Shown here piece after piece: positions 3,966 through 33,826 of a stretch of 35,974 nucleotides of DNA (position 1 is the first letter of the stretch; each line of letters begins with the position of its first letter). The position numbers were made by a program, and so were the translations under genes. The stretch covers positions 1 through 35,974 of IMG/VR virus record IMGVR_UViG_3300020185_002070. One strand, 5' to 3'. The notes beneath the pieces were generated by a model that was given only the letters and a program-made list of their open reading frames with translations, made no database searches and was not told where the DNA came from. This DNA is from a virus.

Positions 3966-3983
3966 TACCTAAACAAATTTGTT

Positions 3984-4160: not shown

Positions 4161-4164
4161 AGGG

Positions 4165-4189: not shown

Positions 4190-4202
4190 CAATACCCGAT
4201 AG

Positions 4203-4309: not shown

Positions 4310-4325
4310 CACATCCTTAAATTCT

Positions 4326-8761: not shown

Positions 8762-8771
8762 ACCCACAACA

Positions 8772-9811: not shown

Positions 9812-9813
9812 TG

Positions 9814-11281: not shown

Positions 11282-11293
11282 TCGGGGTTTTTT
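11268..11293 (+). terminator. Rho-independent terminator between the replication and rII operons
   Basis: CCCCGAC (11268-11274) pairs perfectly with GTCGGGG (11281-11287) around the loop AAAATA, followed by six Ts. The nuclease stop codon TAG (11279-11281) is built into the hairpin, and the rIIA start at 11298 is only four bases beyond the T run. Confidence 0.88.
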
Positions 11294-11297
11294 CATT

Positions 11298-15160: not shown

Positions 15161-15161
15161 C

Positions 15162-15929
15162 ATGAGCAGTATCGAGAGACTACCCAGAGATGGGAACATC
15201 TGTCTTATTGATGCCGATTCTTTGATGTACTATGAAATGGACAAGCCCTCTCTAGAGCTTGCTATGGATGGTATTGATCAAAGGATCGCATCAATGCTAT
15301 CAGAGTGTAATACTTCTAAATACGTTGGTTTCCTTACAGAGAAGAGATGCTTCAGATATGATGTAGCTCTAGACTATAAGGGTAACCGCAAGGGAAAGGC
15401 TAAGCCTCCTATATTTTATGCACTGCGTGAGCACCTCAAGCAGAGATACAATATGTGGAGTATGCCTGAACTTGAGGCTGATGACCTTGTGAGCTATTAC
15501 TCGTATACGGATAACCGTAGCACGATCATATGCTCACCAGACAAGGACGTCTTGTACCAATGTGTTGGAATGCATTACAACTATGGTAAGGCAGAGTTCC
15601 TTCATACTTCACCTGATGAAGCACTTAAGTTCCTATGGAAACAAGTGCTCATGGGTGACAGTACGGACAATATACCAGGAATACCAGGAGTAGGAGCTAA
15701 GACCTCTGAGAACTGGTTGAAGGATAGAACGAAAGACTATGAGGCATTTGCCTTGAAGAAGTTCGTTGAGAAGTTTGGAATGGTGGAAGGTGTGATGAAG
15801 TTTCACGAAACCTTCAAGCTCGTCTATATGTTAAAGACAGATGACGACATGAAGCGTGAAGCAGGTAGAACACCACCTCCTTTGGAGGTATCACAGCTAT
15901 CAGAAGGCCAAACAGAGGAGCTATGGTAA
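15162..15929 (+). CDS. 5'-3' exonuclease (FEN/Pol I 5'-nuclease family)
   Basis: This 255-residue protein has the metal-binding acidic residues of the flap/5' exonuclease family: LIDADS (Asp17, Asp19), ELEADD (Glu105, Asp107, Asp108) and SPDKDV. The helix-three-turn-helix motif GDSTDNIPGIPGVGAKT (about 165-181) binds the DNA backbone. It would remove RNA primers and flaps, supplying the activity missing from the phage polymerase at 1447. It starts 2 nt after the rIIB stop and overlaps the next gene by 7 nt. The length is near that of T7 gp6 (300). Confidence 0.92.
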   Translation: MSSIERLPRDGNICLIDADSLMYYEMDKPSLELAMDGIDQRIASMLSECNTSKYVGFLTEKRCFRYDVALDYKGNRKGKAKPPIFYALREHLKQRYNMWSMPELEADDLVSYYSYTDNRSTIICSPDKDVLYQCVGMHYNYGKAEFLHTSPDEALKFLWKQVLMGDSTDNIPGIPGVGAKTSENWLKDRTKDYEAFALKKFVEKFGMVEGVMKFHETFKLVYMLKTDDDMKREAGRTPPPLEVSQLSEGQTEELW

Positions 15930-16699
15930 ACTGTCCGGACATACAATTCACCCCGATTAATGGGAGAACTGTGCGTCTGACTGGGAATCTCTCTAAGTGT
16001 GTAACCAAGAAGGTTGACGATGTAATAACAGGTATTAACTGTGAGTTCAATGACTGCAAGATAGAGATTAAGCTAGGTTCGACTATCAGGCCAAGGCCTA
16101 AGTCGCCCTACCGCGTAAATCATATCACTGCATGTCTTGGGCCTCACAACGGTACAGTATGCTACGACTTATCAGTTGAACGACTTACAGATTCAAGCAT
16201 ATTCCTTCTCCCTATGATGGGTGGGAATAGAAAGCTGATGCTGTGGGATTCACTATTTGTCAATGCGTTCATGGAAGCGCCTGACTTCCCTGAATGTGTT
16301 GCATTACTGTACCGTTATTCAGGCGATACCTTGTTTACAAAGTTTGAATCAGCTTTATGTTCGTTCAGGAATTTTAAAGTGAGAAGGGATCCAGATCCTC
16401 ATCACGTACTATTTGTGTTCGGAGTACCGGATGAAGCCAAAACTTCATATGCAGCATTCAAAGATGGAAGATATTCAGAGATAGAAGATGATTGGAAGCT
16501 AAGAATATTGGAGTTTCATGGTTTTGACTTTGACGGACACACTGGGAAGATTCTCTTTAAAGACCCAGGACTAAAATCTCAGATCGAGAACAAGCTTGAC
16601 GTACGACTCCCAGATGATGCGGAGTTGCACAGTAAGCCTAGTCTCGAGCTTGAGGTATTTAGACCGGAGCTTTATTCTCCCAGTAAAACAGTAATATGA
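15923..16699 (+). CDS. Unknown protein, 258 residues
   Basis: I do not recognise this protein. It begins at an ATG overlapping the exonuclease stop and ends in an ATGA overlap with the UDG gene, so it is firmly part of the operon. Several beta-rich stretches (EIKLGSTIRP, HVLFVFGVPD) and a conserved-looking core (YRVNHITACLGPHNGTVCYD) point to a folded globular domain. There are no membrane segments and no obvious catalytic motif. The DFDGH near residue 211 resembles a metal-binding loop but is unsupported by neighbouring motifs. Its neighbours suggest a role in DNA metabolism. Confidence 0.75.
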   Translation: MVNCPDIQFTPINGRTVRLTGNLSKCVTKKVDDVITGINCEFNDCKIEIKLGSTIRPRPKSPYRVNHITACLGPHNGTVCYDLSVERLTDSSIFLLPMMGGNRKLMLWDSLFVNAFMEAPDFPECVALLYRYSGDTLFTKFESALCSFRNFKVRRDPDPHHVLFVFGVPDEAKTSYAAFKDGRYSEIEDDWKLRILEFHGFDFDGHTGKILFKDPGLKSQIENKLDVRLPDDAELHSKPSLELEVFRPELYSPSKTVI

Positions 16700-17481
16700 A
16701 CGATAAAATCAAAGAACAGGTTGGGGACTGGTGGCCAGTTCTCCAGCCGATCTTTGACTCACAGAGATTTGCGAAACTGAAGAAAGAATTAAGTGCGGAA
16801 TACAAAACTAATCGATGCTTTCCTGTGGCAAGGAACGTATTTCGTGCTTTTGACTGGACTCAGTTTCGTGATCTCCGTGTAGTCATACTAGGGCAAGACC
16901 CATACCATAATGGTATAGCTACGGGCCTTGCATTTGCTACTAACAACGGTAAGCTCAGCCCAAGTCTTAGGAACATTGTAAAAGAACTACATGAAAGTCA
17001 TGGTAGGGATGTGAACCCTGAGTTCGATACAAGTCTTGAGCATTGGGCTAGACAAGGTGTACTTCTAATCAACACGTCTTTGACTGTTAGACAGAAGGAA
17101 CCTAACTCTCACAAGAAATTGTGGGAAGGCTTTACTTTGGAAGTGCTCAAACGTATCCGGGCCAAGCATAACAACATCGTTTTTGTTGGTTGGGGTAAAG
17201 ATGCGCAGTCTTTGTTAGAGCAGATACAAGTTACTAGTGCGACTGCTGAAGATAGCCTGACCTTATTCCCTGAAGAGATTGGTAGTCATTGGGTGCTAAC
17301 TGCACCCCACCCGGCTGCTGAATCTTACTCTGGGGGTAAGGCAGGTTTCTTTGGTTGTAAGCACTTTGTGCAGATTAATGAGTACCTTGACCGTCCTATA
17401 AACTTCTTTAATTTACCAGAAGATGAGCGACGGGATATGGTTCCAAGAGAACAACATGAACACTACCATAGACAAGGATAA
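16696..17481 (+). CDS. ung: Uracil-DNA glycosylase, family 1
   Basis: The 261-residue product has the UNG signature GQDPYH (66-71, Asp68 catalytic), the uracil-binding motif LLINTSLTV with its Asn, and the second catalytic motif with His205 in APHPAAES, followed by GFFGCKHF. It removes uracil from DNA. In canonical UNG the second motif is HPSPLS, whose Leu inserts into the minor groove; here Glu209 stands in that place and about three residues are inserted before GFFG. UDG genes are common in crAss-like phages. A tail after about residue 232 (PINFFNLPEDERRDM) is extra to the family core. Confidence 0.93.
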   Translation: MNDKIKEQVGDWWPVLQPIFDSQRFAKLKKELSAEYKTNRCFPVARNVFRAFDWTQFRDLRVVILGQDPYHNGIATGLAFATNNGKLSPSLRNIVKELHESHGRDVNPEFDTSLEHWARQGVLLINTSLTVRQKEPNSHKKLWEGFTLEVLKRIRAKHNNIVFVGWGKDAQSLLEQIQVTSATAEDSLTLFPEEIGSHWVLTAPHPAAESYSGGKAGFFGCKHFVQINEYLDRPINFFNLPEDERRDMVPREQHEHYHRQG

Positions 17482-17764
17482 AGAAAGCCCTGAGCTTGAT
17501 ACTTTGCGCAAAGCGTATTATATTCTTGACAGTATAAAGGTTTTACTTAGAGAGAAGAATACAGCCTACGGAGATTCAGCATTGAACCCGCTTAGATTGT
17601 TCTCTCGAGCGGACGCTATCTCAGCACTTGAAGTGCGGATAGACGATAAGCTTAGTAGAATCCAAAACATGGGTATTCATGACAAGGCCGAGGATACAAT
17701 CCAGGATCTTATTGGCTATCTAGTGCTACTGCAAGTAGCTAAGAATAAGGAAGGGGGGCAGTAG
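17456..17764 (+). CDS. Nmad1/DUF1599-like nucleotide metabolism protein
   Basis: The start is ATG 17456 (MNTTIDKDKE), overlapping UDG by 26 nt; an earlier ATG at 17423 is possible. The 102-residue product has the pattern LLREKNTAYGDSALNPLR, FSRAD, VRIDDKLSRIQ, then EDTIQDLIGYLVLL. This matches my memory of DUF1599, renamed nucleotide modification associated domain 1, a helical MazG-like family with acidic residues that could bind metal. A dNTP pyrophosphatase or nucleotide-modification role is inferred. The TAG stop (17762-17764) is built into the following terminator. Confidence 0.72.
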   Translation: MNTTIDKDKESPELDTLRKAYYILDSIKVLLREKNTAYGDSALNPLRLFSRADAISALEVRIDDKLSRIQNMGIHDKAEDTIQDLIGYLVLLQVAKNKEGGQ

Positions 17765-17778
17765 CCCCCCTTTTTTTT
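17753..17778 (+). terminator. Terminator at the convergence of the two gene blocks
   Basis: GGGGGGC (17753-17759) pairs with GCCCCCC (17764-17770) around the loop AGTA, followed by eight Ts. On the minus strand the same stem is followed by the weaker tract TTCCTTATT, so it may also end the giant-gene transcript. Only 21 nt separate the two converging stop codons. Confidence 0.88.
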
Positions 17779-17785
17779 GCCCTTC

Positions 17786-20700
17786 TTATGAGAACCAACG
17801 AAGTTTGTCTTGTACAGCTTTTGCACTACCGTCTGCCCATGGTACTGTCTTCCAAGTCCTGAGCAACGGCATCACTTTATTGATTCTTCCAGCCAGCTTG
17901 TAATCACCTTTCTCATAAGGTCCAGACCTACGCTGGTACAGTGCTCCCTTAGTTACTTTCTCTTCGTTGAAGTATATACCAGTCTCATACTGAGCAGTAT
18001 AGAGTACAGACTCTGCAAGCTTTAAGTAATCTTCGATGAAGTTGACAGTAGCCATAGGTCTTGCTGCCATTCTAACTGCTTCTACAGGATTAAAGAAACC
18101 TGTAACTTCAGTCTGCAACCTCTTAGCTTGGTAAGCTATAAACGATGCAGTGTAATCTTCATCATCATCGTCTATCAAGCCTTGCATCAGAGTGTACAGC
18201 AACATTGTACCTGCTATTGTTGCTACATCAACAGCTACACGCTTCATATTCTGCTTGTCAATCTCACTTGAACCCAGTGCAGCTTTAAGATCACCTGTTT
18301 CAACCAAAGTTCTAAGTGAGTTAGCAAAAGTCTGATAGTATCCTTTGGTTACTTCCCCTAACTCATGGTCTACTTGGTACATATCACCATGACCATAGCG
18401 TCTCCTAAGTCCAGGTATAAAGTAGTTACGGAACAACAGCAATAACTTACCAGTAGTAGTACGTTGCGCCATAGCAGAGTCAAAGCTTCCCTTGACCTGG
18501 TTTGTACGTTTTGCAATACCATGGATCTTAGCTATTACCTGACTCTTATTAACGTTAGCTACTCTAGGATCAATAGTAAGCTGACCATTTTCCTTCTCTA
18601 CGAGCATATCCCACAGGTTAGCCTCTGAGCCATCCTCATTAAGAATTGGCTCACCCTTCTTGTCCTTAACCTTAGTAGAAGTCATCACTGCAAGCATTCT
18701 AATACCAGCAGTTTCATGCTCAACACCGTGCTGCAAAGCAAACAACGTGTCTTTACTGAAAAGCTTTCTAGCCTTATTTCCTCCTATATTCTGCCCAAGA
18801 GAGTCAGTCACTTCATTCAAAGCATCAAACATCTGCATAGCCTTAGCAAGCTTACCCTTAGGTACAAACGATCCAACATCTCTTAGAGCTGCACCCTCTG
18901 ATGTGTAGATAGCAATAGCTTTACCCCAATCCTCTGGAGTAAAGAATTGTTTAGCAAAAGCTTCCTGAGCTGTCATCAGGTTGTCAAGTATAGCTTGGTT
19001 ACCAATCTGCAGTAAGTTACCAGCAAGACCAACTACTGCTGTAGCACCTACTAGTTTCCCAGCAGTTTTAGCTTGAGATATAGAACCAAGAGTGGCTGAA
19101 GTATCAGATACTCCATAGAATACAGACTCGATAAAATCTCTTAAGTGCTTAAGATCATTGTTATCTGACTCATCTCTACTCACAACGAGCTCATTAGCTC
19201 TACGAGACATACCAGCAATTTGGTCTCTAATTGGGAGTCCTCCTTGGTGCTTTATCACTCCTCTCTTCTCGTGTATAACAAGCATGCTGTGAACAAGACC
19301 AGCTATAGATGATTTCTGCTGGTAGTTGTTAGACATGTGTATGAACTGAGTCATACTAGCAGCTACATCTCTAGATACATTCTTCTCATCAGCTACCTGA
19401 GTGTAGTACTTAGGGATACCACGTATCTCCTGACCATCTACTTCAGTCATCAAACCAAATTCAGTATCTGTATCAAGCCTACGGAAGTCTCTGCCTTGCT
19501 CTTTTGCAAGTTCTTTCCATCCGTCTTCAAAAAGTGTACCTAGCCCATCCTTACGAATAGTTGGCATCACATAGCTGTACTTGTCCCAGTTATTGACTTG
19601 CTGCTGAGTATTTCCAAGCTTAGCCTGAGCTTTATGATATTCACTGACTATGAATTCATAGTACTGCTTAAGCTCTGGAGTGTTCATGATCTTCTCGTAC
19701 TTCTCACTGAGGTACATTCTGTTACCACTCTCATCTTTAGCCTTTGGTTTAGCCAGCTCTCCCATAGCAATGAACTTAACCTGTCCATCTACTAGCTGTG
19801 GGGCATAGTAACCCATCTTCTTACGACGAGCTTGCAGCTTATAGAAATCAGACCTCAATATGATAAGCTGCTCTCTGTTCCTAGGATTGTTTTCTACCTC
19901 GAGCATCTTCATTTTATCCTCGATAGCGTTCATCTCCTTAATAACAGACTTGAACTTTTCTTCAGCACCCTCTACAGGTTCTGTGTTCTCAGCAAACCAT
20001 TCTTGCTTAGCCTCTGCCCAATTCTTACCGTCAGAAGACTTGTACCACTCTTTCCAAACTTCCTGAGAATCTTCATTCGAAGGCTTGTTGTACTTAGTAC
20101 TGATACTATCAAGGAAACTGTAATAGTTTGAATAGTACTTATCTATATCAAACTCCTGCACCAGGCTAAGAGCCTTTATTGTTTTATCTCCCTTCCTGAC
20201 CCTGACAGTAGTCAAGATGTCTTCATTCAACTTATCTTGGTTGAACTCTGACCCACCTTTCCATTCTTTGAAATCATTGTACTTACTCTCAAGGTCGTAG
20301 GTAAAGTTTATAGTGTCCTCGTTGGCTCTATACAATGCGTCTTTCACAGCCAATGCAAACAACTGTAAGTTCTGTTGACGAGAGTAAACAATAGGATCTA
20401 ACCAGTAAGAGAATTTACTCTTAGACTTCTGAGCTTCAGTAAGTTCCTGAGTAATTTGAGCTGCCCCAACCATCTTGTTCTCGATGTAGCGGAGCTTAAT
20501 CTCCATAGCCTTCTCGTTGAACTCTTCCCTACTCATAGCAGAGTCTGTGTTCTTCCTGCTATAGTATTCAGAATTCAAAGCTTTAAACTCTGGTATACTC
20601 ATAGCTCTACTAGCTCCAACTCTCATTGGGCGGAAGCCAGAAAGATCATTGGACTCTATTATCCTTTTCTTCTCAGCTTCTATTTGAGCTGCAGCTTCAG

Positions 20701-23700
20701 GACTAGCATAAGAGAGCAAAGCATTGGTGGTAAGAGGTACAACAGTATCCATGTACATCTTATTCAAATCTCTGAGATTCTCCATGCTCTCTGACAAATC
20801 AAACAAGAGTTCCTTAACCTCATCATCAAGGTTTTCAAGATCTCCTTCATCACGCAGAGTACGCAACAGACCAGTCATCTGAACCACAGTGGAAGTTGAC
20901 TCATCTTCAGTGTACAAGCTCTCAAGAGTCTGACGTATAGAGTCAATTTTGTTCAACCTACTGAACATCTCATCTCTAGTAAGAGGTACTCCGTTCTTGA
21001 CCTCTTCTAAGAGGTCCTCCATCATGTTGTTTAGTATCTCTGTTCTCCCAACTACATACTCATAGAAGTCATAGAACTCATTGAGGTCTGTAATCTTAGA
21101 CTCTGCCTTCTCATTTAGCTCGTCAATGTTTTGTATCAATCCATCTAGCTCACGAATCTTTGCCTCTCTGTTCTCAGTCTCAGCAAGTTGGTTGAGTCTA
21201 AACCGCTGTCTAGCCAAGCTATCTCTAACTTGCTTGTACACTGTCCCCATCTTCTCTTTAAGATCCTTAGACTTCTGAATCTTAGGGTTGAACTGACCAG
21301 ACAATCCTTCTGCCCTCATATCCCCAACAAACATCTTCTCTGCAAGCACTGCTGCTACATTAGGACTTACTCCAAAGACTTTACCTAAAGCGCGAAGTAT
21401 CTTGTTGATGATTACCCTAAGCTTGCTAGGCTTGTTGCGCTCAATCTTAGCTCCTTGTAATCCAATGGCAGTTACAAGTATCTCTTTCCCAAGCTCACGT
21501 CCTTCTAGCTCTGGGTATTTAGATTGTACAGACTTTGCAAGAGATGGCTCAGCTTTTATTACCTGCTCTACAAATGCATCAACCTGATCCTCAGGCATCA
21601 TATCTATCAGTATGTGCGCAAACTCGTGATACACAGTATCTGTTTCCATCTGTGATGGATCTACATATACAGTATCTCCTTGAACTTGACCTTTAGTACC
21701 AAGAGGAAGCTCAGTCTCAACAACCTTTACGTCAATCCCAGCCGCAGCAAAGTTCTCTCTCAGTCTAGCTACCTTTTCTGCAGCTCCTTTAGGAGTTTCT
21801 CTCTGACCTGTACCAACACGTTGAGAAGAAACCTTCCCATCGTATGGGGCGCTAGGACGAGGTAGCATTATAGATTGCTCGTTATCGAACAGACTGCCTT
21901 TTACCTTTTTTCCTGTCTTAGGCTCTCTTAAGTAAGCTTCGTACAATACGTACTGCTTGCCTTTTGTAGCTACAGGAATGTACTTGTAGTTTTTAGTATT
22001 TTTAATACGGTCTGACCTCTGGTAAAGAATCTTCTTGTTGCCTTCTAGTGATATCCTGAAGGCATCGTTCGCTGGGCTTATGTAATCTTGTATCTTATTG
22101 TCTGCCTCAAGAAATCTCTCCTTGAATCTGCCTTTATCTCTTGGGAACAAGGTTTCTCTTCGTGCACTATGAGTTCCATAGTTCATAAGGAACTCAACTT
22201 TGAAATCATCAAGAGCTCTCTTGTTAGTGTTAAGCTTACTAATCTCCTGATTGAGGTGCTCAGTAACTCCAAGCTCTCTCCAGAAGCTTACAGGTATAAG
22301 CTCAAAGTAACTCTTCATACCTGGAGCAAATCCACTGGTTATGATAGAGTTAGTTATTATAACACGAATACCATCCCTAATTGTATCCCTATTTTCCTCA
22401 CCGTACAGTCCAGAATTGTCCATCATGCCCTGCATGGTGTAAGTAAACCTATCCTTCTCCTCCTTAGTAGACAGTTTAGTCTTGTCTACTTTAAGGTAGT
22501 AGAATGGGAAACCATTGACTTCTTCCTGTTCTAAAGTGAAAGCGTCGAATACAGGATTTACAGTCTCACCAGCAGCCTTTTTGGCATTATTCATAACAGA
22601 CTCAAGCCCTCCTCTTATAGTAAACCTATCTCTTATATAAGGAGCATCAAGAAGACCTTTCTCAAATATCGGAGATCCAGGCTTAGTTACTAAGTGGTGC
22701 AGTATAGCTCTGTTGATGTCTCTGTGCTGAACATCATTTAAGTAATCTAAACCAGACAGCTTTTTGACATCTTCTTTAAATGACGTAACTGCTGGTTGTG
22801 TACCTATAAAGCCAAGAGCTGTAGTCAATTCTACAGAGCGGTTTATTGCAGCATAGTAGGCTTTGACTATAGGATAAGCTTCTCCTTCTGTAACATTCTT
22901 AAGAGCCTCTCTTCCCCCGAATACAATATCATCAGCTTGCTGTGTAATAGTTAGAGCTCTCTCCACTTTAGCAAGGTGCTGTGGAGTAGTACCAGCTTGG
23001 TCAATGTTGTCAGGAGATAGTATTGTATACAGATTACGTAGCTTCTTTGCTTCCTCATTAATGAAAGAAAGCATCTTCATGTAATCAGATTTGTTGTATT
23101 CGGTATTAGCTCCTGAAGCTATAGCTTGCATTTCAGCTAAGTTCAAGTTCATTGCAATAGGCTTATATCCTATAAGACCCTGCTTTATACTGCGGTTATG
23201 CTTAACACTGCTATCAATAACTTCTTTAACTGCTCCTACATTCAAGAATGCTATTGCCTGTTGAGGAGTCATACCTATAGACAGCATGTAAGAAGTGAGA
23301 GGTGCTGTGAGAGAGTTGTCATTCATCAGTCTCTGCACAGGATCTTTCACAGAGTCAACAGACTTTGACAAGTACCCTGACATGTAATAGTCTGTAAACC
23401 TGTATACTCCTAGCGGATCTGGAAATAGTGACTTCTCTACTAGGTTTCCTACAGTTACTCCATCGACTTTGAACTGCGGTCCTGTAAACGTGAACCCACC
23501 TATAGACATAGCAGTCAGAGCTACGTTACGTCCAGCAATAGTGTTCGCATATATTCCACGCAGCGCCATGCTAAGCATGTTGTCTGTTGCACTCCTAATT
23601 CTATCGTGAGGATTGTTAATGTCTATCTCTACGTGAGGATTCTCATATCCTATTCCTACAATTCCCTGTAAGATTGGGTCTACACCTTCCTCAATATCTA

Positions 23701-26700
23701 GAGGAGTCATAGTCTCATGTATGTGATTGACGTTACTTCCAATAGCCATGAATGTGTCAAACACAATATTGTTTAGCACTTTCTCATCAAGCTCTTCAAA
23801 CTGCTCCTGAGTTGAATTCTTCAAAGCGTTGTAGTCAGGCTTGACCTTAGTTACTCTGACTTGCTTCTTTCCTTCGATGTTTACTTCAGGGAAGATCACA
23901 AACATTTTGTCAATGTCGAAGTCAGAACCCATCATGGTAGTAACAGATGGTGGTATACGCACTGCCTTAGAGTGAGAGTTTGGAAGAACCTTGCGGATCT
24001 TCATCATCAACATAGATGATTTACCCTGCTGAGGTATACGATACCCAAGCATCTTATTGACTGACTCTTCTATCTCAGATATGCTAGCATCAGGGTCAAC
24101 ACCCATAGCCTCAAGCACATCTCTACGTATATCTACCTCTGCTGCAGCTACTTTGCTGTAAGTATTTCCTTCAGAATCTGTTGCCTCTTCAATAGAATAG
24201 AAATTTAGGTTCTTATCAGTTTGGGACTCCCCGAACTCAGCAAACTGAACCATCTCTACACCCGTCAACTTCTGCAGGTAAGCAGAGCTGCGGAACAATC
24301 CCATTATCAAGGAATCAAGTTTGTTCTGTACAGTAGGGAATGAAAGTGGTACTTCAGTAGTTATTACACCATTAGCATCTACTATGACATTCACAGAATC
24401 CATGATATTCTGTGGCAAGTCTTTCTCAATACCAAGCTCCGTAAGTGCTTCTCTAAGCTTTGGAAGCATAGCCTGCATAGCTTGTGCTTCTTTATTGGTA
24501 TCTCCTTTCTCTCTGGCTTCCAGTACTTTATCGTATCCTAGACGGCTAAATACACTAGCGTGACCTTTATTCAGCTTAGCTATTACAGCTTTCTGATACA
24601 TATTTATAAGATCCCTACCAGATACCTCCATACCCATGTCCTCCAGGTAGTAACTGGTTTCTGGGTTTATGTTAGCGATCATGTTCTTCCTAGGCTGACG
24701 ACCGAAGGTTATCTTCTGTGCTTTCTTACTAGGAAGTATCTGCGGAAACTTAAGTCCTCTACTTGGTACAGTCTGTATTGTAGCACTTGCAAGATCTGTG
24801 ATATCTACAGGTTGGAATGATGCAAGCTTCTTGGCAGATATAGTATTTGCTACATGTACATTGTTTGTTTCAAAGTACTGAGCTAAATTCTGGAGATTAG
24901 GTATGCCCTCAGCAAGCTCATCAGTCAGTACTACGTAGGAGTTCTTATGTGATATTGGGAGCAAGTGCCTATGTCCTCCCATCGTATGTTCAACCCTGTA
25001 GTCATACGAAGGCTTGAGTGGCATAATGGGTGATCTAGTACCATCCCACTTCCTTTGCCCAATAGGTGCAGACATGTACTCTTTGTAGACTTGTTCGTCT
25101 ACTGCAGTCCATTGCCCAAGACCCATACGAAGCCTACGGTACATGTCTATGCTTATAACTGCCTGAGCATCAGTACCATTGGATCTATCATATGCAGATA
25201 TGATACCCTCTGCAGCAGCTTCCCCTACTTGATCCACAAGCTTCTCTTTAAGATCAGCTCTATCCTTAGAAGGAATAGATCCAAAGATGTCGTTTAGAGT
25301 TATCTCTTTGAACTCATCCAACATACCATAGTCAGCATTGTTGGGGTCATTGTTCATACTGATTGTAAAGAGCTGAGTTCCAGGAGTACTACTAAGAGCT
25401 GAACGCTTTACATAGTCAGCCCCATTCTTTACGTAGTTGACACCTGAACGAAGTATCTCTCTAGACATCATGCGACCAAGCACAGACATCTCAATGAATT
25501 CATCTATGTAAGCTATCTCCTCACCTTTAATGTATCCACCGTAATTGCCTTTAGAACCTCCTTTGATAGTAGAGGTAACAAATAATTGAAGAGCTCCCTC
25601 ACCACCCAGCTCAGCTACTATGTCTTGGCGATACTGAGTCATCCTCTTCTTAGTATCAGAGACATAAGACTTAACTGCTTTCTTAAGCTCTGGAGACATA
25701 GGAGTTCCCTTCTCTAGATGCACATAGGCTTCAACCAGCAGGTTACTCTCAGGATCCATATTAGGGCCCCCAAGCTGAAAAGCTAAGTACCTATCTCTGC
25801 TATGATAAGTCTCTACAGGAGATTCACTCTTAGCCTTCTCAGCTACGTACATCCTGTGCAAGTCAAGCAAATATGTACGTTCAATACCTGCTGCTATTGG
25901 ATCACTCTCTTGACCAATATCAAACCCATACATAGCAGCTACATCAGAGTTTCTGAAGTTAGGTACAGGCATGTACGTAAGCTTAGAGCGGTCACCTTGA
26001 GTGTCCACTGCTATGTACCTTACTTTGTTGCTCTGAGCAAACATAACTAGGTCTACTGCTAGGCCGTCTTTGTATGTAAAGCCGTCAAACTCTTTAGCTG
26101 CATTCTCGTCTGCTGCAAATGAGTCTATATCTACAAGCTCAAATAGCTCCTTACCATTCTTATTGGAGATAAACATGTGAGCCAAGCTCCTTGTATCTCC
26201 GTCTGAACCTTTTACTACACTTCCTACTACTCCTCCCTCGGTTTCCTTACCATACAGTACTGCTGCAAGGTTGTCCTCACCTTCACTCTTAATCAACTCC
26301 GTAGTGATGTTCATATCACTCTTGAGATTGATTGGGTATACAAGGTTACCAGTACCATTAAAGAATGACGTAGAGCTAGGAGCCTCAAACTTTGACATTA
26401 TGATCTGTGATACAGCATTCATAGTGCTGCTCTCAGTCTCAAATATGTTGCTGTAGTTGTTCAGTATCTTCTTGGTCATCTTACCGTTGCCGGTAAACAT
26501 GCTTCTAATCTTTGTATCCTTTGTAAGGAAGTTGTACATCCCTATTTTATCCTTCTCGAAGGCTATCTGAACTCTTCTACCTGCCTCTTTTTTATTGCTG
26601 GCAATGGTAATTCCCATTTCAAGAAGCAGCTCACCCAACAACTCGTACTGCTTGACACCATCAGGAGTCTTTTGCATAGCTGTCTCAAGCTCACCGTAAA

Positions 26701-29700
26701 GAGATTCCGCTTTAGCTCTACGCTCTTCATCAATCCTAAGGTCTAGCAAGTCACCACTAGAGTTAATTCCAGGAGTATACAATCCACCAGATCCTGTAGA
26801 CTCATCTTTCCACTTCTGTGCAAAGTATCTCTGAATACTGTTCTCACTGCTATTGATGATTTTGACAACCTTGTTACCGTTATCGTCAATCTCAAGCTTG
26901 ATGAGTTTGTAGGGAGTCATAGCTTGTGCAAACACAGAGTACATAAGAGCTTTCTCTTTTGCATCTAGCTTGACCATGAAATCATAAACTTCTTTCAGTG
27001 CGCTTATCTCATTGGCTTTCTCCTCAAGAGCGCTAAGCATTTGTACCCAGTCTGTAGCGTCAACTACAGTAGCTGCTACCTGTTTGTATACATCCTCAAT
27101 AGGTATAAACGTTTGGAACCCAAGTCTGCTCGCCTCTGTATTCTGCACAGGTATGCGAGACAATGCTCTACGTGCTTTGTCCCCAAGAGTCTTAGCAGGG
27201 TCTTCCTTAGACCTGCTTACACTATATACTCTATCAGCACCTTCATCATTATCTGCTATATCTTCTGCCTTCCTAGTTAGCTCAGTATCATAGGTTTTAA
27301 GTCCATAGTCCCTAAGCCTATCTCTAATCTCAGACCTGTAACCTCTGACTTCAACTCCCCCAAGCTCACTGCGCTTGTCATGCCAGTGCTCGTAGACCTC
27401 TAAGAATAGTTTAGAATACGCTGCAGAATTATCCCCAACAGTCATCTGGTCAGGCATAATCTCATTATCAAACGTAAGATCAGGAGAACCGAACTGTACG
27501 TGCATGACATTCATAGCTCTTACCATCTTCTCAGGATCTGAGTACACCTTCTTGATGATCTCAAACTCCTTGTCTTTCAATGCTCTTGATCCTAGTGGAG
27601 CATTTACTTTAAGAGCTGACCTAAGGAACCAGTCAGCTATAGCAGACTCTCCCCCTTTTACGTTTGCTGTTGCAGGACTACCAAGCAAGTCTTGTATGTC
27701 TACTTCTGAGTTAGCATCTAAGGACTTGATGACCTTATATACAACGAGGTCTCTTATCTCCTTACCCAGCTTAGGGTCAGATACAAAGTGCTGCATCAAG
27801 AACGCAGTACCTCCTGGTGAGAATGTCTGGGCAGTTCTAGAGTATGACTTAGGTATCCTGTTAGACTCTATCATACTGAATGCACTGCGGACAGTCATTG
27901 GATATCCAGCAAGAGCTTTGATGTATATAAGTAAGTCCTTAAAGAACTTAGCAATACGTTTACCCATAGTCTTAGGCTTCTGCTCAGTAAGAACAAAGTC
28001 CCTAAACTCCTCAGCAAGCTTCTCCTCCAAAGCTAGATTCCTAGCTTCCTCGTCAGTCATCTCTCTCTGACCTCTTCGAGCTTTAGCTATGTCTTCAGCA
28101 GTAGGCTCCCCGAACATATCTGCAGCGTCTTGATACAAGTCAGCCCTCTGCCTATTAGTAAGCAGTGTGCGGAAGAACAGGTGAAAGCCTTCATGGTACT
28201 CAGTACCTACCTCAGCCTGAGAGAACAAGTGCACAGCACCATTCTCCATATAGCCGTGGACAATATTGTCCCCAACCATTTTAAGCTGGTCGTAGATGGT
28301 AACAGCATCATCTCCGAATCTTTTTCTCAACCAAGCTATAGCTCTCTCCTTGTCTATCTTCTCTTTTGCAGCAGATGCAAGCCTAAACGGAGAACCACCA
28401 TAGTCTTTACCAGTAAGTTTCTTGTATTCAGCCTCAGCCTCCTTTTGCTCAGCCAAAAGCTTATCAGCCTGCTGAACATCTCCTTCCATAAATGCCATCT
28501 CGGCCAATATGGATAGATTTTCAATCTTTGCGGCGAATCTCTGATCGATAGCTGCAGACTCAGTAGATGTCTCAGATTGTTTACCAGGTTCTAATCCTTT
28601 GATAGTCAGAGGCTTCTGTACTATAGGGTTTATAAGAACTGCACTAGTAGCTTGTGTATTAGATGCTTCTTCGACAGTTTTATTTTCAGGACTTGGATAC
28701 CTTACATCAACTGGTACTACAGATATCTCAGATACAGTAACACCGAACTTGTTTTCAGCTAAAGCTTTGTATATGCTAAGCTGTTTCTGGTATGTAGAGC
28801 GTTGCTGCTCATCCATCCTAGGACCATACTTACCCTCTGGTGTAACTCTAACACCTTTAGTACCCGTAGACTTATTGTTCTTATAAATTGCCTTAGATAC
28901 TGTAGCTTCACGAAGACTCTTGATATCGTAGATACGGAAATTGCCGTCCTTATCCTGAGTCATAAGATCCACTGTACCAGCAACTCCTACAACTGCACCA
29001 TCTTTACTAGTAGCTTCTGCAGACTCGAATGACAAAGTAATGTCATCTTCAAGCACTTTCTCTCCCCTTCCCTCAAATAAAGTCTGCAAATTCTCAGCAG
29101 CTGCACTGAGTTCATCCTGTGCTTCTTGAGAAAGATTAGGATAAGAGTTAGAACCTACTCTACCTGCAAAGTAATCTCGTAGGAACTGGTCAACACTGTT
29201 TCCTATAGCAGTTGCAGATGCACTCCACTTCGGATCAAACGTTTCTTTACTACCAATAAAAGTAGTAGCACGCATGTACAGTTTACCTGTCTTTTTATTT
29301 CTATAGTACTTACCATCTTCTGTGAGCTCTAGGTTGTTACTATTGTCAACTATAGCATCTACAATAGACTCATATACATAACCCTCTTCGTCGATATATG
29401 GTTTACCTCCCTGCGCAGCAGCAGACTCTAACTCCTCTTGTGATGGCTCTCCCCTCTCTTCTACTACTCCTTCTTCAAGGCCCAGCTCCGCTTCAAGAGC
29501 AGCCAGTTCTTCATCACTAGCTTGTCCTGTAGTATTACTCCCCTCAGTACTAGAGTGAATTGAACCCTGACCTACACCAGGTTCTTCAGGAGCTGCTTTA
29601 TTCTCAGGCTTACCCTTAGGCTCAGGTTCTACTACAGCTGCAGCAACAGCTTGCTTAGGCTGTTCATTTTGTATTGAAAGATCTATGGAGATCTTGTGAT

Positions 29701-32700
29701 CGAATGTTGGGAGCCCTTTATGAAATCTAACTTGAGTTGAGAGTAACTCTGATTCAATAAACTCAGCATATCCTCCAGGGTATACCTTCTTTGTCACAGG
29801 GTCTGTGTACGCTCCTTCGATAGCTAGGAATGTAGGATCAACTTGCCTCTTTGTAGACTTTACAGCTTCCTCAAAAGAAGCTCTCATACCATCCTTAAGA
29901 GCTAGGTAATCAGCAGTAGAAGCATTTGTATCGTTTTCAAATACTACTACCTCTTGGCCTTCTACTGTCCTAGTTACAAGAGTTCCTATAGAGAACTTGC
30001 CTACAGGCTTGTCTTCCAGCAAGTTACGCATCTCCTGAACAGAAAGCTTAACTGCTTTGTCTTTGTGGAAGAAGCTGATAAGAGGTACACCCTGCTCAGT
30101 TACTTCTACAGTAAACTTAGAGAATCCTCTTTGCCATATCGGGAGACCCGCTACTGCCTTTATGTTGTTCTCAAGATTAGATACATCAGAATCAAGTATG
30201 TATTGCCTTATTGCTGCAAGACCTTCTACACCTGTTTCTTTAGTAGTAATAGGTATAGCTGTGTAGTCCCCGTTAGGGAGCTTAAAAATCATTACAATCT
30301 GACCAGTGCCTAGATCATTTTTTGGTCTACGCAAAGAGACAGCATTAGATGCTGCATTCAATACTTCTTCAGACACACCTTCCCCTACAATCTCTACACC
30401 CTCCTCAGTTACATATCCGTATGTTACAAATCCTTCAGGCTTGCCGTCTTTGAACAGCTCAGACATAGGCTTGAGTACAGGTACCCCATCCTTAACCTCA
30501 TTGATAAAATTACCAGAGCCAGCATATCCTATGTCAGATATCCTACCTGTTGTAGGATTACCCTCCATAAGAGACATATAAACTCTAAGGCTTTGTCGAT
30601 TACCCTTAGGACCATGCGGAGAAGGAAGTATACCTATGTATCTACCATCTAGCTTAACGTATATGACAGCTTCAGTAACTGTCTTACCGTCTTTCTCAAA
30701 AGTCTCATTGTTAAGCACAAACTCAACTTCTGAGGTCAGGGCAGCATCATGACCTTCTTTGGTCTTTAGGTACTCCCTGTCAATCTTGAACTCCCTGTTC
30801 TTATCGTTACCCTCTATAGGGAAACCATTGTCATCAAACTTTACAGTTTCTTTGTCATCCTCTGTTGCAAGCTCCCCGTTCTGTATTTGAGCCTTTTGTG
30901 TTGTAGACTTAGGAGCTCTACTATCTCCAGTATTCTCTGAACCAGCAGTAGTAGTTCCTTTAGAAGCATCTTTAGTTTGATCCTCTTTCTTGTTCTTGTT
31001 TTCTTCTGCAACGTCTGCAGCAGCTGCAGCCTCAGCCGCAGCCTTCTTATCCTCCGCTGCCTTCCTCGCAGCTCTCCTAGATCTATTGCCTTCTATAAGT
31101 CCTTCCTTGGTGCGATGCTTTATAGTCTCACTTAAGACATGTCTTTCCACTATTTCCTCAGGAGTAAGTGGTGTTCCTGCAGCAGCTTTCTTATTAAAAG
31201 CAGCTAATGCTACTTCAAGTACAGAAAGGTCATCTTCATTCAGCCTCTGATTAATAGCAGCTTCATTTAATTTACGCTTGTCGCGCTCGTCAGTAAGCTT
31301 CTTCTTAGCTTTTGGTGATAATTTCTTGTCCTGTGCTACTTTCAGAACAGCTTTAATTTCCGCAGAAGTATTAGTATTTTCTATCTGCTCCTCTGCGTAC
31401 TTATCGATCTCATCCTGTACAGCTTTTTCGTCTGCAGCTCTCTGCCTATTAATGTAAGATGCACGCTCTTCAGGATCTGTTAAGAGTTCTTCCAGCGCAA
31501 AAGAAGTATAGCTTCTAGAACCAGCAAGGCGAACAAGATCCTCTGCTATTACAAGAGCCTGAACCTTCTTTATAGGATCAGATATAGAGTTTACAAGTGT
31601 ATATATCCTCTCTGCAACCTGTTGCTCGAGCAATGAGGTTTCTTCGGATACGAGTGACTCGGGGTCAGTAGATCTCTTTTTGAACTGCTGCTTATCAGCT
31701 TCAAGCTCTTGAGTTTCTATAGTCTCTGCTGCAAGTGAGTCCTTGGCCTGATTAAGCTCAGCATACAGATTGTTAAGAGTTTGCTGGTCTTCCTTGTTGA
31801 GTTTACCCTCAGGACTGTTTCTTTTCTTCTTTTCAAGTCTGCGAATCTTACTGGAATTGTACTGCAGTCTCTTTACAAGCCTCTCAGCTTCAACACGTTG
31901 CTCTTGCTCTAGAGGTGTAAACAGCTGGTTCAGTTCTGCTGTAAGCTTTTCAATACGAGAATCATTATCCTCTAGACGAAGACTTTCTAGGATAAGTCTG
32001 CTTTTATATTTATGCTCGTCAATAGCCTGCTGCTTTTCTTCTTCAGTAACTTCTTTTTTGCTGAGCAGCTTTGCAAGCTTTGTCTTTTGACTCGAAGGGA
32101 ACATAAGCTCAACCTTCTCCTTCATTTCCACGAACTTCTTGACGTCTTTAGTGAGGTCACTTGCTATACGTGCTTGGTCAAACTCAACTCCTTCAGGTAT
32201 ACCAAAAGCTTTTGCAAACTCTGCAGGCTCCATACGTTTAGCATCATCTATCTTTTGCAGATACATGTCTATAGTACCAGCTCCGTCATGCATCGCAATC
32301 TGAGACAGAACCAGACTAAACTGTGCATCCCTGTATGCTTTATGATCCCCATCTTCTAGGGCTTTCTGCATTGCTTGGGAATACGCCTCTTGCTTTTTAG
32401 ATTGCTCTGCTTTCTCAGCAAGAGTATACATCTGCTCACTGTTCAGAGCCTTTATAATCTTAGCTCTTCCTTTGTCTTCCTCAGCTTGGTTCCATCTACT
32501 CCTAGCAGAACCAGCTCCTCCCATAAATCCTCCAATGATGAAACCAAGCATCAAGGATTCTATACCTTCTTTATCAGTTAGGGTGTCTTCCCATCCCCCA
32601 ATTACTGATGATGAGAAATCTAAAAGGCCAGAAGGACCTCCTTTCTCTAAAGAAGATTCACCTGCACGCTGAATAGCGTACTGAGTACCTTCCTGAAATG

Positions 32701-33826
32701 TCTCACTAATTGCATTTTCACCAGGCTGCCTCAAGTACCTAGATGCGGTTCTTTTCCACATAGGGCTATCTTCCTTAGCCCAGGTATCTCTCCACTTACC
32801 AAGTTTGTCTTGCCTATAACCCTTGGCCTTTGGTCTCATTTTACCATACTTAGGAAATAGACCTTTGCCGAACATAAAAAGGTTAGTGGGAGCAAGCACT
32901 GCCATGTTAAAGGCATAACCGTAGTTACCAATACTAGATGCCAAGTCTCTAGCTTCTTGTTTTTCAGAAGCTGTAAGCTCTTGAACAGTTACACCTCTAG
33001 ACTCTGCAATATCTAATGCTGCTTCAGCGTATGCATGGTTCAGCATCTCACGAGCTTCCACAGAAGCCTCAGCGTGAGACATTGCAATACCTACCTCTGC
33101 TGTTTTAGCAGCGTTAATAACCGAAGCCCTTCGAGCACCTGAAGATATTTTCTGCCCAATCTTAGCACCTGTAGCCATAGACTTTGCAGCATTGTACATG
33201 CTTAGGCCTTTACTAGATGCTTTAGCGGCTTTAGCAGCAAGTCCTGCTCCTCTGGCTATCAGTCCAACACCACCCGTCATTGCTAATGTAGCTACACTAG
33301 CTACAGCATATCCAAGACCATTAGCTGCCTTATCTCCCCAGAAGTTAGCATAACCTAAGTTCTCAAGACCTATTGCGTTCTGTTCTTCCTTAGTGTAGTA
33401 GTTTGGATAGTTCTCCTGCATCCAAGCATTCATACTATCTATTGCTCTACCAGTCTCGTTGTCATAGATTTTAGTCCAGTCTCCTTGAACTATAGCTTCA
33501 CCAATACCGTCCATCAAACCAACGGTATTCTCAGCTACTGCACCTGCCATAGTAACACCAGCCTTCATCAATCCTCTACCCCACTTCTCAGCTTTGCTCT
33601 GACGCTGAGCACGCATCTCATCTAAATCAAGTCCTGGAAGTGTCGGAACACCGTAAGACTCATAGCTGCTTGGTGTACCTCTGAGATTTAAGAACTCAGG
33701 ACTACTCAAATAAGGAGCACTACTACGTGTAGTACCTGTATCTTTTTTACCAGTAAATGGATCTATCTTATCCTTTACAGGTTTGTCAGGTAACCCTGTA
33801 AAAGGATCAATTGTATCGTTAGCCAT
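17786..33826 (-). CDS. Giant virion RNA polymerase polyprotein, crAss-like, 5346 residues
   Basis: One uninterrupted frame encodes about 600 kDa. From the N-terminus: a repeated DPFTG start; hydrophobic segments near 165-198, 299-320 and 419-439; charged coiled-coil-like helices (about 450-915); an Ala/Lys/Glu linker (917-950); a low-complexity Pro/Glu linker (1390-1474); a RecB-like nuclease (1475-1745); a zincin-like domain (1827-1955); a long region with the RNA polymerase motif DFDID at 3302-3306, preceded by RIP at 3263-3265; a second zincin-like domain (about 4033-4133); coiled coil; and a C-terminal part with hydrophobic helices near 4912-4945 and 5193-5217. DFDID resembles the NADFDGD of multisubunit polymerases and the motif of crAss-like virion polymerases, which are injected to transcribe early genes. 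The start overlaps the upstream stop (TAATG). Confidence 0.92.
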   Translation of the reverse strand: MANDTIDPFTGLPDKPVKDKIDPFTGKKDTGTTRSSAPYLSSPEFLNLRGTPSSYESYGVPTLPGLDLDEMRAQRQSKAEKWGRGLMKAGVTMAGAVAENTVGLMDGIGEAIVQGDWTKIYDNETGRAIDSMNAWMQENYPNYYTKEEQNAIGLENLGYANFWGDKAANGLGYAVASVATLAMTGGVGLIARGAGLAAKAAKASSKGLSMYNAAKSMATGAKIGQKISSGARRASVINAAKTAEVGIAMSHAEASVEAREMLNHAYAEAALDIAESRGVTVQELTASEKQEARDLASSIGNYGYAFNMAVLAPTNLFMFGKGLFPKYGKMRPKAKGYRQDKLGKWRDTWAKEDSPMWKRTASRYLRQPGENAISETFQEGTQYAIQRAGESSLEKGGPSGLLDFSSSVIGGWEDTLTDKEGIESLMLGFIIGGFMGGAGSARSRWNQAEEDKGRAKIIKALNSEQMYTLAEKAEQSKKQEAYSQAMQKALEDGDHKAYRDAQFSLVLSQIAMHDGAGTIDMYLQKIDDAKRMEPAEFAKAFGIPEGVEFDQARIASDLTKDVKKFVEMKEKVELMFPSSQKTKLAKLLSKKEVTEEEKQQAIDEHKYKSRLILESLRLEDNDSRIEKLTAELNQLFTPLEQEQRVEAERLVKRLQYNSSKIRRLEKKKRNSPEGKLNKEDQQTLNNLYAELNQAKDSLAAETIETQELEADKQQFKKRSTDPESLVSEETSLLEQQVAERIYTLVNSISDPIKKVQALVIAEDLVRLAGSRSYTSFALEELLTDPEERASYINRQRAADEKAVQDEIDKYAEEQIENTNTSAEIKAVLKVAQDKKLSPKAKKKLTDERDKRKLNEAAINQRLNEDDLSVLEVALAAFNKKAAAGTPLTPEEIVERHVLSETIKHRTKEGLIEGNRSRRAARKAAEDKKAAAEAAAAADVAEENKNKKEDQTKDASKGTTTAGSENTGDSRAPKSTTQKAQIQNGELATEDDKETVKFDDNGFPIEGNDKNREFKIDREYLKTKEGHDAALTSEVEFVLNNETFEKDGKTVTEAVIYVKLDGRYIGILPSPHGPKGNRQSLRVYMSLMEGNPTTGRISDIGYAGSGNFINEVKDGVPVLKPMSELFKDGKPEGFVTYGYVTEEGVEIVGEGVSEEVLNAASNAVSLRRPKNDLGTGQIVMIFKLPNGDYTAIPITTKETGVEGLAAIRQYILDSDVSNLENNIKAVAGLPIWQRGFSKFTVEVTEQGVPLISFFHKDKAVKLSVQEMRNLLEDKPVGKFSIGTLVTRTVEGQEVVVFENDTNASTADYLALKDGMRASFEEAVKSTKRQVDPTFLAIEGAYTDPVTKKVYPGGYAEFIESELLSTQVRFHKGLPTFDHKISIDLSIQNEQPKQAVAAAVVEPEPKGKPENKAAPEEPGVGQGSIHSSTEGSNTTGQASDEELAALEAELGLEEGVVEERGEPSQEELESAAAQGGKPYIDEEGYVYESIVDAIVDNSNNLELTEDGKYYRNKKTGKLYMRATTFIGSKETFDPKWSASATAIGNSVDQFLRDYFAGRVGSNSYPNLSQEAQDELSAAAENLQTLFEGRGEKVLEDDITLSFESAEATSKDGAVVGVAGTVDLMTQDKDGNFRIYDIKSLREATVSKAIYKNNKSTGTKGVRVTPEGKYGPRMDEQQRSTYQKQLSIYKALAENKFGVTVSEISVVPVDVRYPSPENKTVEEASNTQATSAVLINPIVQKPLTIKGLEPGKQSETSTESAAIDQRFAAKIENLSILAEMAFMEGDVQQADKLLAEQKEAEAEYKKLTGKDYGGSPFRLASAAKEKIDKERAIAWLRKRFGDDAVTIYDQLKMVGDNIVHGYMENGAVHLFSQAEVGTEYHEGFHLFFRTLLTNRQRADLYQDAADMFGEPTAEDIAKARRGQREMTDEEARNLALEEKLAEEFRDFVLTEQKPKTMGKRIAKFFKDLLIYIKALAGYPMTVRSAFSMIESNRIPKSYSRTAQTFSPGGTAFLMQHFVSDPKLGKEIRDLVVYKVIKSLDANSEVDIQDLLGSPATANVKGGESAIADWFLRSALKVNAPLGSRALKDKEFEIIKKVYSDPEKMVRAMNVMHVQFGSPDLTFDNEIMPDQMTVGDNSAAYSKLFLEVYEHWHDKRSELGGVEVRGYRSEIRDRLRDYGLKTYDTELTRKAEDIADNDEGADRVYSVSRSKEDPAKTLGDKARRALSRIPVQNTEASRLGFQTFIPIEDVYKQVAATVVDATDWVQMLSALEEKANEISALKEVYDFMVKLDAKEKALMYSVFAQAMTPYKLIKLEIDDNGNKVVKIINSSENSIQRYFAQKWKDESTGSGGLYTPGINSSGDLLDLRIDEERRAKAESLYGELETAMQKTPDGVKQYELLGELLLEMGITIASNKKEAGRRVQIAFEKDKIGMYNFLTKDTKIRSMFTGNGKMTKKILNNYSNIFETESSTMNAVSQIIMSKFEAPSSTSFFNGTGNLVYPINLKSDMNITTELIKSEGEDNLAAVLYGKETEGGVVGSVVKGSDGDTRSLAHMFISNKNGKELFELVDIDSFAADENAAKEFDGFTYKDGLAVDLVMFAQSNKVRYIAVDTQGDRSKLTYMPVPNFRNSDVAAMYGFDIGQESDPIAAGIERTYLLDLHRMYVAEKAKSESPVETYHSRDRYLAFQLGGPNMDPESNLLVEAYVHLEKGTPMSPELKKAVKSYVSDTKKRMTQYRQDIVAELGGEGALQLFVTSTIKGGSKGNYGGYIKGEEIAYIDEFIEMSVLGRMMSREILRSGVNYVKNGADYVKRSALSSTPGTQLFTISMNNDPNNADYGMLDEFKEITLNDIFGSIPSKDRADLKEKLVDQVGEAAAEGIISAYDRSNGTDAQAVISIDMYRRLRMGLGQWTAVDEQVYKEYMSAPIGQRKWDGTRSPIMPLKPSYDYRVEHTMGGHRHLLPISHKNSYVVLTDELAEGIPNLQNLAQYFETNNVHVANTISAKKLASFQPVDITDLASATIQTVPSRGLKFPQILPSKKAQKITFGRQPRKNMIANINPETSYYLEDMGMEVSGRDLINMYQKAVIAKLNKGHASVFSRLGYDKVLEAREKGDTNKEAQAMQAMLPKLREALTELGIEKDLPQNIMDSVNVIVDANGVITTEVPLSFPTVQNKLDSLIMGLFRSSAYLQKLTGVEMVQFAEFGESQTDKNLNFYSIEEATDSEGNTYSKVAAAEVDIRRDVLEAMGVDPDASISEIEESVNKMLGYRIPQQGKSSMLMMKIRKVLPNSHSKAVRIPPSVTTMMGSDFDIDKMFVIFPEVNIEGKKQVRVTKVKPDYNALKNSTQEQFEELDEKVLNNIVFDTFMAIGSNVNHIHETMTPLDIEEGVDPILQGIVGIGYENPHVEIDINNPHDRIRSATDNMLSMALRGIYANTIAGRNVALTAMSIGGFTFTGPQFKVDGVTVGNLVEKSLFPDPLGVYRFTDYYMSGYLSKSVDSVKDPVQRLMNDNSLTAPLTSYMLSIGMTPQQAIAFLNVGAVKEVIDSSVKHNRSIKQGLIGYKPIAMNLNLAEMQAIASGANTEYNKSDYMKMLSFINEEAKKLRNLYTILSPDNIDQAGTTPQHLAKVERALTITQQADDIVFGGREALKNVTEGEAYPIVKAYYAAINRSVELTTALGFIGTQPAVTSFKEDVKKLSGLDYLNDVQHRDINRAILHHLVTKPGSPIFEKGLLDAPYIRDRFTIRGGLESVMNNAKKAAGETVNPVFDAFTLEQEEVNGFPFYYLKVDKTKLSTKEEKDRFTYTMQGMMDNSGLYGEENRDTIRDGIRVIITNSIITSGFAPGMKSYFELIPVSFWRELGVTEHLNQEISKLNTNKRALDDFKVEFLMNYGTHSARRETLFPRDKGRFKERFLEADNKIQDYISPANDAFRISLEGNKKILYQRSDRIKNTKNYKYIPVATKGKQYVLYEAYLREPKTGKKVKGSLFDNEQSIMLPRPSAPYDGKVSSQRVGTGQRETPKGAAEKVARLRENFAAAGIDVKVVETELPLGTKGQVQGDTVYVDPSQMETDTVYHEFAHILIDMMPEDQVDAFVEQVIKAEPSLAKSVQSKYPELEGRELGKEILVTAIGLQGAKIERNKPSKLRVIINKILRALGKVFGVSPNVAAVLAEKMFVGDMRAEGLSGQFNPKIQKSKDLKEKMGTVYKQVRDSLARQRFRLNQLAETENREAKIRELDGLIQNIDELNEKAESKITDLNEFYDFYEYVVGRTEILNNMMEDLLEEVKNGVPLTRDEMFSRLNKIDSIRQTLESLYTEDESTSTVVQMTGLLRTLRDEGDLENLDDEVKELLFDLSESMENLRDLNKMYMDTVVPLTTNALLSYASPEAAAQIEAEKKRIIESNDLSGFRPMRVGASRAMSIPEFKALNSEYYSRKNTDSAMSREEFNEKAMEIKLRYIENKMVGAAQITQELTEAQKSKSKFSYWLDPIVYSRQQNLQLFALAVKDALYRANEDTINFTYDLESKYNDFKEWKGGSEFNQDKLNEDILTTVRVRKGDKTIKALSLVQEFDIDKYYSNYYSFLDSISTKYNKPSNEDSQEVWKEWYKSSDGKNWAEAKQEWFAENTEPVEGAEEKFKSVIKEMNAIEDKMKMLEVENNPRNREQLIILRSDFYKLQARRKKMGYYAPQLVDGQVKFIAMGELAKPKAKDESGNRMYLSEKYEKIMNTPELKQYYEFIVSEYHKAQAKLGNTQQQVNNWDKYSYVMPTIRKDGLGTLFEDGWKELAKEQGRDFRRLDTDTEFGLMTEVDGQEIRGIPKYYTQVADEKNVSRDVAASMTQFIHMSNNYQQKSSIAGLVHSMLVIHEKRGVIKHQGGLPIRDQIAGMSRRANELVVSRDESDNNDLKHLRDFIESVFYGVSDTSATLGSISQAKTAGKLVGATAVVGLAGNLLQIGNQAILDNLMTAQEAFAKQFFTPEDWGKAIAIYTSEGAALRDVGSFVPKGKLAKAMQMFDALNEVTDSLGQNIGGNKARKLFSKDTLFALQHGVEHETAGIRMLAVMTSTKVKDKKGEPILNEDGSEANLWDMLVEKENGQLTIDPRVANVNKSQVIAKIHGIAKRTNQVKGSFDSAMAQRTTTGKLLLLFRNYFIPGLRRRYGHGDMYQVDHELGEVTKGYYQTFANSLRTLVETGDLKAALGSSEIDKQNMKRVAVDVATIAGTMLLYTLMQGLIDDDDEDYTASFIAYQAKRLQTEVTGFFNPVEAVRMAARPMATVNFIEDYLKLAESVLYTAQYETGIYFNEEKVTKGALYQRRSGPYEKGDYKLAGRINKVMPLLRTWKTVPWADGSAKAVQDKLRWFS
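21430..21730 (-). other. Second zincin-like metallopeptidase domain within the giant protein
   Basis: Residues about 4033-4133 contain HEFAH (His4067, Glu4068, His4071) in TVYHEFAHILIDMM, preceded by the strand DTVYVDPS, and followed by GRELGKEILVTAIG, whose Glu4115 is a candidate third zinc ligand. The HExxH is canonical. It lies between the polymerase region and the C-terminal coiled-coil and hydrophobic region. Confidence 0.72.
23909..24040 (-). other. RNA polymerase catalytic segment (RIP to DFDID)
   Basis: Arg3263-Ile-Pro3265 in GYRIPQQGKSSM is followed 37 residues later by Asp3302, Asp3304 and Asp3306 of GSDFDIDKMFV. In two-barrel RNA polymerases the three Asp residues hold the catalytic magnesium, and an Arg-x-Pro lies a few dozen residues upstream. 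Ile replaces the Gly of the cellular DFDGD, as in other crAss-like phage polymerases. Confidence 0.85.
27962..28348 (-). other. First zincin-like metallopeptidase domain within the giant protein
   Basis: Residues about 1827-1955 contain HEGFH (His1878, Glu1879, His1882) in EVGTEYHEGFHLFFR, preceded by a beta-like NGAVHLFS strand. An acidic helix follows (EEKLAEEFRDF, near 1935-1940) that could supply the third zinc ligand. This is the layout of HExxH zincins. Confidence 0.65.
28592..29404 (-). other. RecB/Cas4-like PD-(D/E)XK nuclease domain within the giant protein
   Basis: Residues about 1475-1745 carry the ordered nuclease motifs: Asp1620 in AGTVDLM, Asp1634-Ile-Lys1636 in YDIKSL, and Gln1682 to Tyr1686 in KQLSIYKAL, the QxxxY motif specific to RecB-family nucleases. 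All catalytic residues are present. A low-complexity Pro/Glu linker separates it from the upstream part, as if it were an inserted or separately folding module. Confidence 0.75.

Follow-up and report, generated by a model that had tools for sequence, protein, structure and literature searches.

A 5346-residue reading frame in a crAss-like phage contig joins two cargo units to a predicted virion RNA polymerase core

The minus strand of the window, by which we mean the whole 35,974-base stretch of DNA analyzed here, carries a single ORF of 5346 aa (17786-33826) with an ATG start and no internal stops, which, with a probability of roughly 0.8, encodes an N cargo unit, a two-barrel-type polymerase and a C cargo unit within one injected transcription chain (Table 1). 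The fused gene is a real fusion, one of four interchangeable layouts, and it brings no new enzyme. The window is a complete IMG/VR contig that is classed as linear and is probably a fragment. An earlier note on this DNA had described an open frame of 5346 residues without naming its strand, and had listed hydrophobic segments, a RecB-like nuclease, a zincin, the DFDID motif, a second zincin and a hydrophobic C-terminus; the frame was recovered, and all of these features were found in the order given. The opposite (+) strand across 17786-33826 is stop-rich.

Table 1. Features of the giant ORF and its surroundings (residues of the giant protein; positions in the window)
Feature	Residues	Positions	Strand	Basis or remark
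Giant ORF of 5346 aa, comprising the N cargo unit, the catalytic vRNAP and the C cargo unit		17786..33826	-	ORF calling, relatives, codon constraint
Upstream ORF, 714 aa		33826..35970	-	one-base overlap with the start of the giant
Conserved N-unit domain	63-545	32192..33640	-	common to crAss001 gp47 and phi17:2 gp39 (phrog_32390)
Hydrophobic Ala/Gly-rich stretch	171-192	33251..33316	-	weakly conserved
Predicted PD-(D/E)XK (RecB-like) nuclease domain	~1535-1710	28697..29224	-	patchy accessory domain
Putative zincin 1 domain	1786-2010 (HEGFH 1878-1882, E1935)	27797..28471	-	invariant in 20 phages
Predicted catalytic RNA polymerase core	2705-3580	23087..25714	-	homology to 6vr4
DFDID active-site motif	3302-3306	23909..23923	-	aligned with DFDID of phi14:2 gp66
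Putative zincin 2 domain	3982-4200 (HEFAH 4067-4071, E4115)	21227..21883	-	invariant in 16 phages
Conserved C unit	4690-5346	17789..19759	-	homologous to crAss001 gp49, phi14:2 gp65, phi17:2 gp36
C-terminal hydrophobic stretch	5197-5215	18182..18238	-	hydropathy
Terminator hairpin (bidirectional)		17746..17779	.	between convergent modules; DNA similarity to L074/L088 ends there

One gene in place of two or three

The contig is metagenomic and the named relatives examined carry two or three genes, and thus an assembly or frameshift artefact that fused separate genes might be suspected. However, such an artefact is extremely improbable, because fused ORFs collinear with the giant are present on independent contigs (5515, 5555 and 5329 aa) and because codon constraint spans both junctions: in a comparison with the relative L004, the third codon position is less conserved than the first two in each block of 400 codons. 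The collinear 5515-aa frame of an independent relative is 45-53% identical to that of the window, and, together with the constraint in all blocks, it rules out both chance and assembly error as the origin of the giant frame. The proposal that separate crAss-like genes are joined here was borne out by BLAST with the whole chain, in which the genes of crAss001 and phi14:2 mapped collinearly onto the giant: pieces of crAss001 gp47 at residues 12-1946, nuclease and zincin 1 included, crAss001 gp50 and phi14:2 gp66 at residues 2705-3545, and crAss001 gp49 and phi14:2 gp65 at residues 4721-5305. The N unit takes the position of crAss001 gp47 and phi14:2 gp67.

The units lie in separate genes in Steigviridae (crAss001, DAC15, cr85_1, cr128_1, frurule and phi14:2), the catalytic and C units are fused and the N unit is separate in Intestiviridae (crAss002, cr11_1, cr110_1 and jaberico), and the N and catalytic units are fused and the C unit is separate in Suoliviridae (cr50_1 and cr4_1). 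The full three-unit fusion was found in none of the named genomes examined, which are a sample and not a survey. Metagenomic relatives cover every layout, with full fusion in L004/L007 (5515 aa), L010 (5329 aa), L014 (5153 aa), L074 (5555 aa), L006/L009 (~4640 aa, without zincin 1) and L063/L064. The suggestion that the giant is among the largest phage proteins was therefore overstated, since relatives reach 5515 and 5555 aa and polymerase genes of up to ~6000 aa are a known hallmark of crAss-like phages (PMC10136315). A tree built from 54 cores grouped the window first with L004 (support 100) and then with L012, L006 and L010 (99). At least 7 changes of fusion state between the N and catalytic units and at least 4 between the catalytic and C units were counted on this tree, numbers that are approximate, as the tree came from a quick search and has some long branches. 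The junctions also vary among phages (~1802 or 1971, and ~3968 or 4061, in the numbering of the giant), and therefore zincin 1 is at the end of the N gene of both crAss001 and crAss002, but in L012 it lies near the start of the catalytic gene. The boundaries of cargo genes in crAss-like phages appear to be evolutionarily free, the same units being encoded as one, two or three chains.

Among the closest known systems, phi14:2 gp67-gp66-gp65 (Steigviridae; the structure of gp66 is 6vr4) has the same three units in the same order and on the same strand as the window. Its genes abut (1797+2180+1421 = 5398 aa, compared with 5346 aa in the window), and it shares the DFDID active site and an HExxH motif in the C unit, but the units are in three genes, gp67 has no HExxH, and identity in the core is only ~24%. 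The crAss001 proteins gp47/gp50/gp49 likewise comprise an N unit that contains both the nuclease and zincin 1, a catalytic unit and a C unit, but from three genes, with gp47 on the opposite strand and with no zincin 2. Unlike in the window, the third unit is separate both in crAss002 (Intestiviridae; gp32 + gp33, catalytic and C units fused, 4245 aa) and in cr50_1 (Suoliviridae; N and catalytic units fused, 4774 aa). A polymerase packaged within a single giant ejected chain is also found in the vRNAP gp50 of N4 (Schitoviridae, 3500 aa), which has a zincin as well, and in the TMP-vRNAP of P23-45 (5002 aa); however, the N4 core is a T7-type polymerase, and the P23-45 polymerase is fused to the tail tape measure. 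Polyvalent proteins (Iyer et al. 2017) similarly carry a number of enzymes, zincins among them, on a single transferred chain, but at the Pfam level the window matched neither their zincin nor their LPD domains.

The polymerase core and the flanking units

The core of the giant ORF can be identified by homology as a Crassvirales virion RNA polymerase of the gp66/gp50 type, in agreement with the crAss-like polymerase that had been recognized earlier. The core sequence of the window alone matched phi14:2 gp66 (PDB 6vr4) at E 2.2e-24, and a profile built from eight cores had 6vr4 as its sole match in PDB (E 1.4e-89, profile positions 26-659), with the DFDID at residue 3302 paired with that of 6vr4 and supplying the DxDxD catalytic motif. 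Two double-psi barrels would be expected in the window core from its homology to the solved 6vr4. The phi14:2 vRNAP has been reviewed as active in vitro and as having a role in early transcription.

That the chain is injected, as the earlier note had suggested, finds support only in homology: crAss001 gp47/49/50 were detected in virions (PMC10172136), and the records of phi14:2 gp65-67 bear an MS/MS virion annotation. The units of the chain follow one another as phi14:2 gp67-gp66-gp65 do, with a predicted zincin on each side of the core and the RecB-like nuclease beside zincin 1. By analogy with the relatives, it would be packed inside the capsid and pass through the tail N-end first, with the N and C units serving as ejection proteins, and it would then refold in the cell and transcribe early phage genes, while the zincins may either cleave the chain at its linkers or act on proteins of the host. 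Equal amounts and ordered delivery of the units would be ensured by the fusion.

The nature of the flanking units is illuminated by the cultured Cellulophaga phage phi17:2, where the N unit has a homologue in gp39 (E 1.2e-65) and the C unit has one in gp36 (E 2.5e-40); both are annotated as structural proteins and are in the same order as the units of the giant. In the phi17:2 genome (L128), these homologues are located at 19725-25598 and 27485-33229. The core profile recovered every one of nine crAss-like controls (E <= 1.5e-22) and had no match in this genome. Neither zincin profile had a match in a search of six large phi17:2 virion proteins. A search of phi17:2 with PF00940 also gave no match, but this is uninformative, because the control genomes were equally without a match. 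Yutin et al. placed phi17:2 in the Epsilon group and described this group as having no transcription block (PMC7886860), and a very divergent polymerase has been reported in an Epsilon phage (PMC11054128). A polymerase of great divergence might also be encoded elsewhere in the phi17:2 genome. Since phi17:2 has both units and no detectable core, the N and C units are more likely to be virion or ejection proteins than polymerase subunits, and the label "RNAP-associated" for gp47 and gp49 may be misleading. Which of the two they are is made directly testable in laboratory phages by phi17:2. It could further be imagined that the N and C units were originally a transcription-independent ejection apparatus, as in phi17:2, which took up the polymerase and two zincins directed at the chain itself or at the host, such that the one chain of the window would help to form an envelope channel and transcribe the entering DNA, after which the zincins would free the polymerase; we regard this scenario as distinctly improbable. 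The N unit, the C unit and the zincins had no significant match in Pfam or PDB sequence searches. Membrane-like regions, which had also been claimed, are not established: both hydrophobic stretches exist, but they are modest (Kyte-Doolittle 1.63 for the first and 1.42 for the C-terminal one), and the hydrophobicity of their counterparts in relatives is not dependable.

The zincins and the nuclease

Both zincin copies have the HExxH motif and a downstream Glu ligand, and the H, E and H residues and this Glu are invariant in 20 (zincin 1) and 16 (zincin 2) aligned diverse sequences, as expected for active gluzincin-type peptidases. The AlphaFold models (pLDDT 80 for zincin 1 and 73 for zincin 2) are zincin-like in predicted topology, with a helix, strands and the HExxH helix in the expected order. 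Foldseek returned no significant PDB match for either model; some of the non-significant ones were zincins, the best of these being MATCAP (E 0.4), PprI (E 0.34) and jannalysin (probability 0.84, E 0.84). Across phages, zincin 1 is about 1200-1660 residues upstream of DFDID, and zincin 2 is about 750-1190 residues past it or, where the C unit has its own gene, ~110-640 residues from the beginning of that gene. What is new here is that a putative zincin with an invariant metal site lies on either side of the core and that these domains are often kept when the genes are split. Two conserved domains with putative roles are thus singled out beside the polymerase.

One such role would be the processing of a polyprotein precursor, in which zincins 1 and 2 cut the adjoining linkers (~1999-2020 and ~3982-4009) and free the N unit, the polymerase and the C unit before packaging or after injection. 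Consistent with this, the zincins are close to the gene junctions of other phages and next to low-confidence linkers, their metal-site residues are invariant, and zincin processing was proposed for polyvalent proteins by Iyer et al. (PMC5512222). Furthermore, zincin 1 is commoner where the N unit and the core are fused (21/26) than where they are separate (5/20); however, this association was not significant on independent pairs of the 54-core tree (median p 0.625, with too few pairs and thus underpowered), and zincin 2 showed no association with gene fusion. It also speaks against a precursor that zincins stay in the split genes of crAss001, crAss002, phi14:2 and L013, that the fully fused L014 has no HExxH anywhere and L006/L009 have no zincin 1, and that the zincin-bearing N4 vRNAP is packaged uncut (PMC5512222). 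We consider proteolytic processing of the giant chain possible and the precursor scheme unlikely. A restriction of zincins to fused genes was rejected, since they occur in split genes and are missing in the fused L014.

Residues ~1535-1710 are identified from sequence as a PD-(D/E)XK nuclease domain. The motif residues VDL, DIKS and QLSIY supply the D...D-x-K and Q-x-x-x-Y-type signature, and the domain matched the N gene of DAC15 at E 1.2e-21 and PF12705 at E 3.3e-4 with 21.1 bits, slightly below the cut-off of 22. PDDEXK domains in large transcription proteins have been described before (PMC7886860). The domain is mobile: it is in the N unit beside zincin 1 in the window and in Steigviridae (DAC15 and crAss001), whereas cr4_1, L036 and probably L100 have it on the C side, in the gene there. 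A candidate homologue in L004 was sought by alignment, which gave nothing convincing, and the variable linker region of relatives had no further accessory domains by Pfam. Alternatively to processing, the zincins and the nuclease may be effectors that are injected to act on proteins or DNA of the host and that fusion merely co-delivers with the polymerase. This tentative reading agrees with the combination of zincins, a nuclease and an RNAP on a single injected chain, which is the pattern of polyvalent proteins, with catalytic residues conserved whatever the gene layout, and with the switching of the nuclease between N and C units; against it, the nuclease was not found in the nearest relatives L004, L010, L012 and L015.

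The replication arm and the terminator

The left arm of the window encodes a DNA polymerase, SNF2 and DnaB helicases, Sak4, a primase, a resolvase, rIIA/rIIB-like proteins and an exonuclease, and is convergent to the giant gene, which is the Crassvirales arrangement of a replication block (DNA polymerase, SNF2, DnaB and primase) convergent to a transcription block. Capsid and portal genes were found nowhere on the 36-kb fragment of the window; the sister genome L007/G002 (89 kb, with the 5515-aa orthologue) has capsid (E 5.5e-18) and portal (E 1.5e-53) genes of the crAss type. A promoter scan gave no excess.

The DNA of the window is 92% identical to that of L074/L088 over 11,253 bases (6535-17776), a similarity that breaks off sharply where the terminator hairpin lies. 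Past the terminator, the giant proteins, fully fused in both, are 33-40% identical, and the upstream neighbours of the giant gene are 25% identical. In the comparison of the window with L004/L072, there is no such identity step, and identity between the giant proteins is about 45-59%, depending on the segment. Because the 92% identity stops at the terminator and the giants beyond it are only 33-40% identical, the giant gene and at least its upstream neighbour were probably exchanged as a block at this position. The 714-aa ORF sits where the upstream cargo gene gp46/gp68 belongs; it has no sequence match to gp46/gp68, and close relatives alone match it (25-41%). The replication arm also contains genes for tRNA-Arg(tct) and tRNA-Met(cat) at 3870-3944 and 4237-4310, and its rIIA- and rIIB-like genes are located at 11298-15160.
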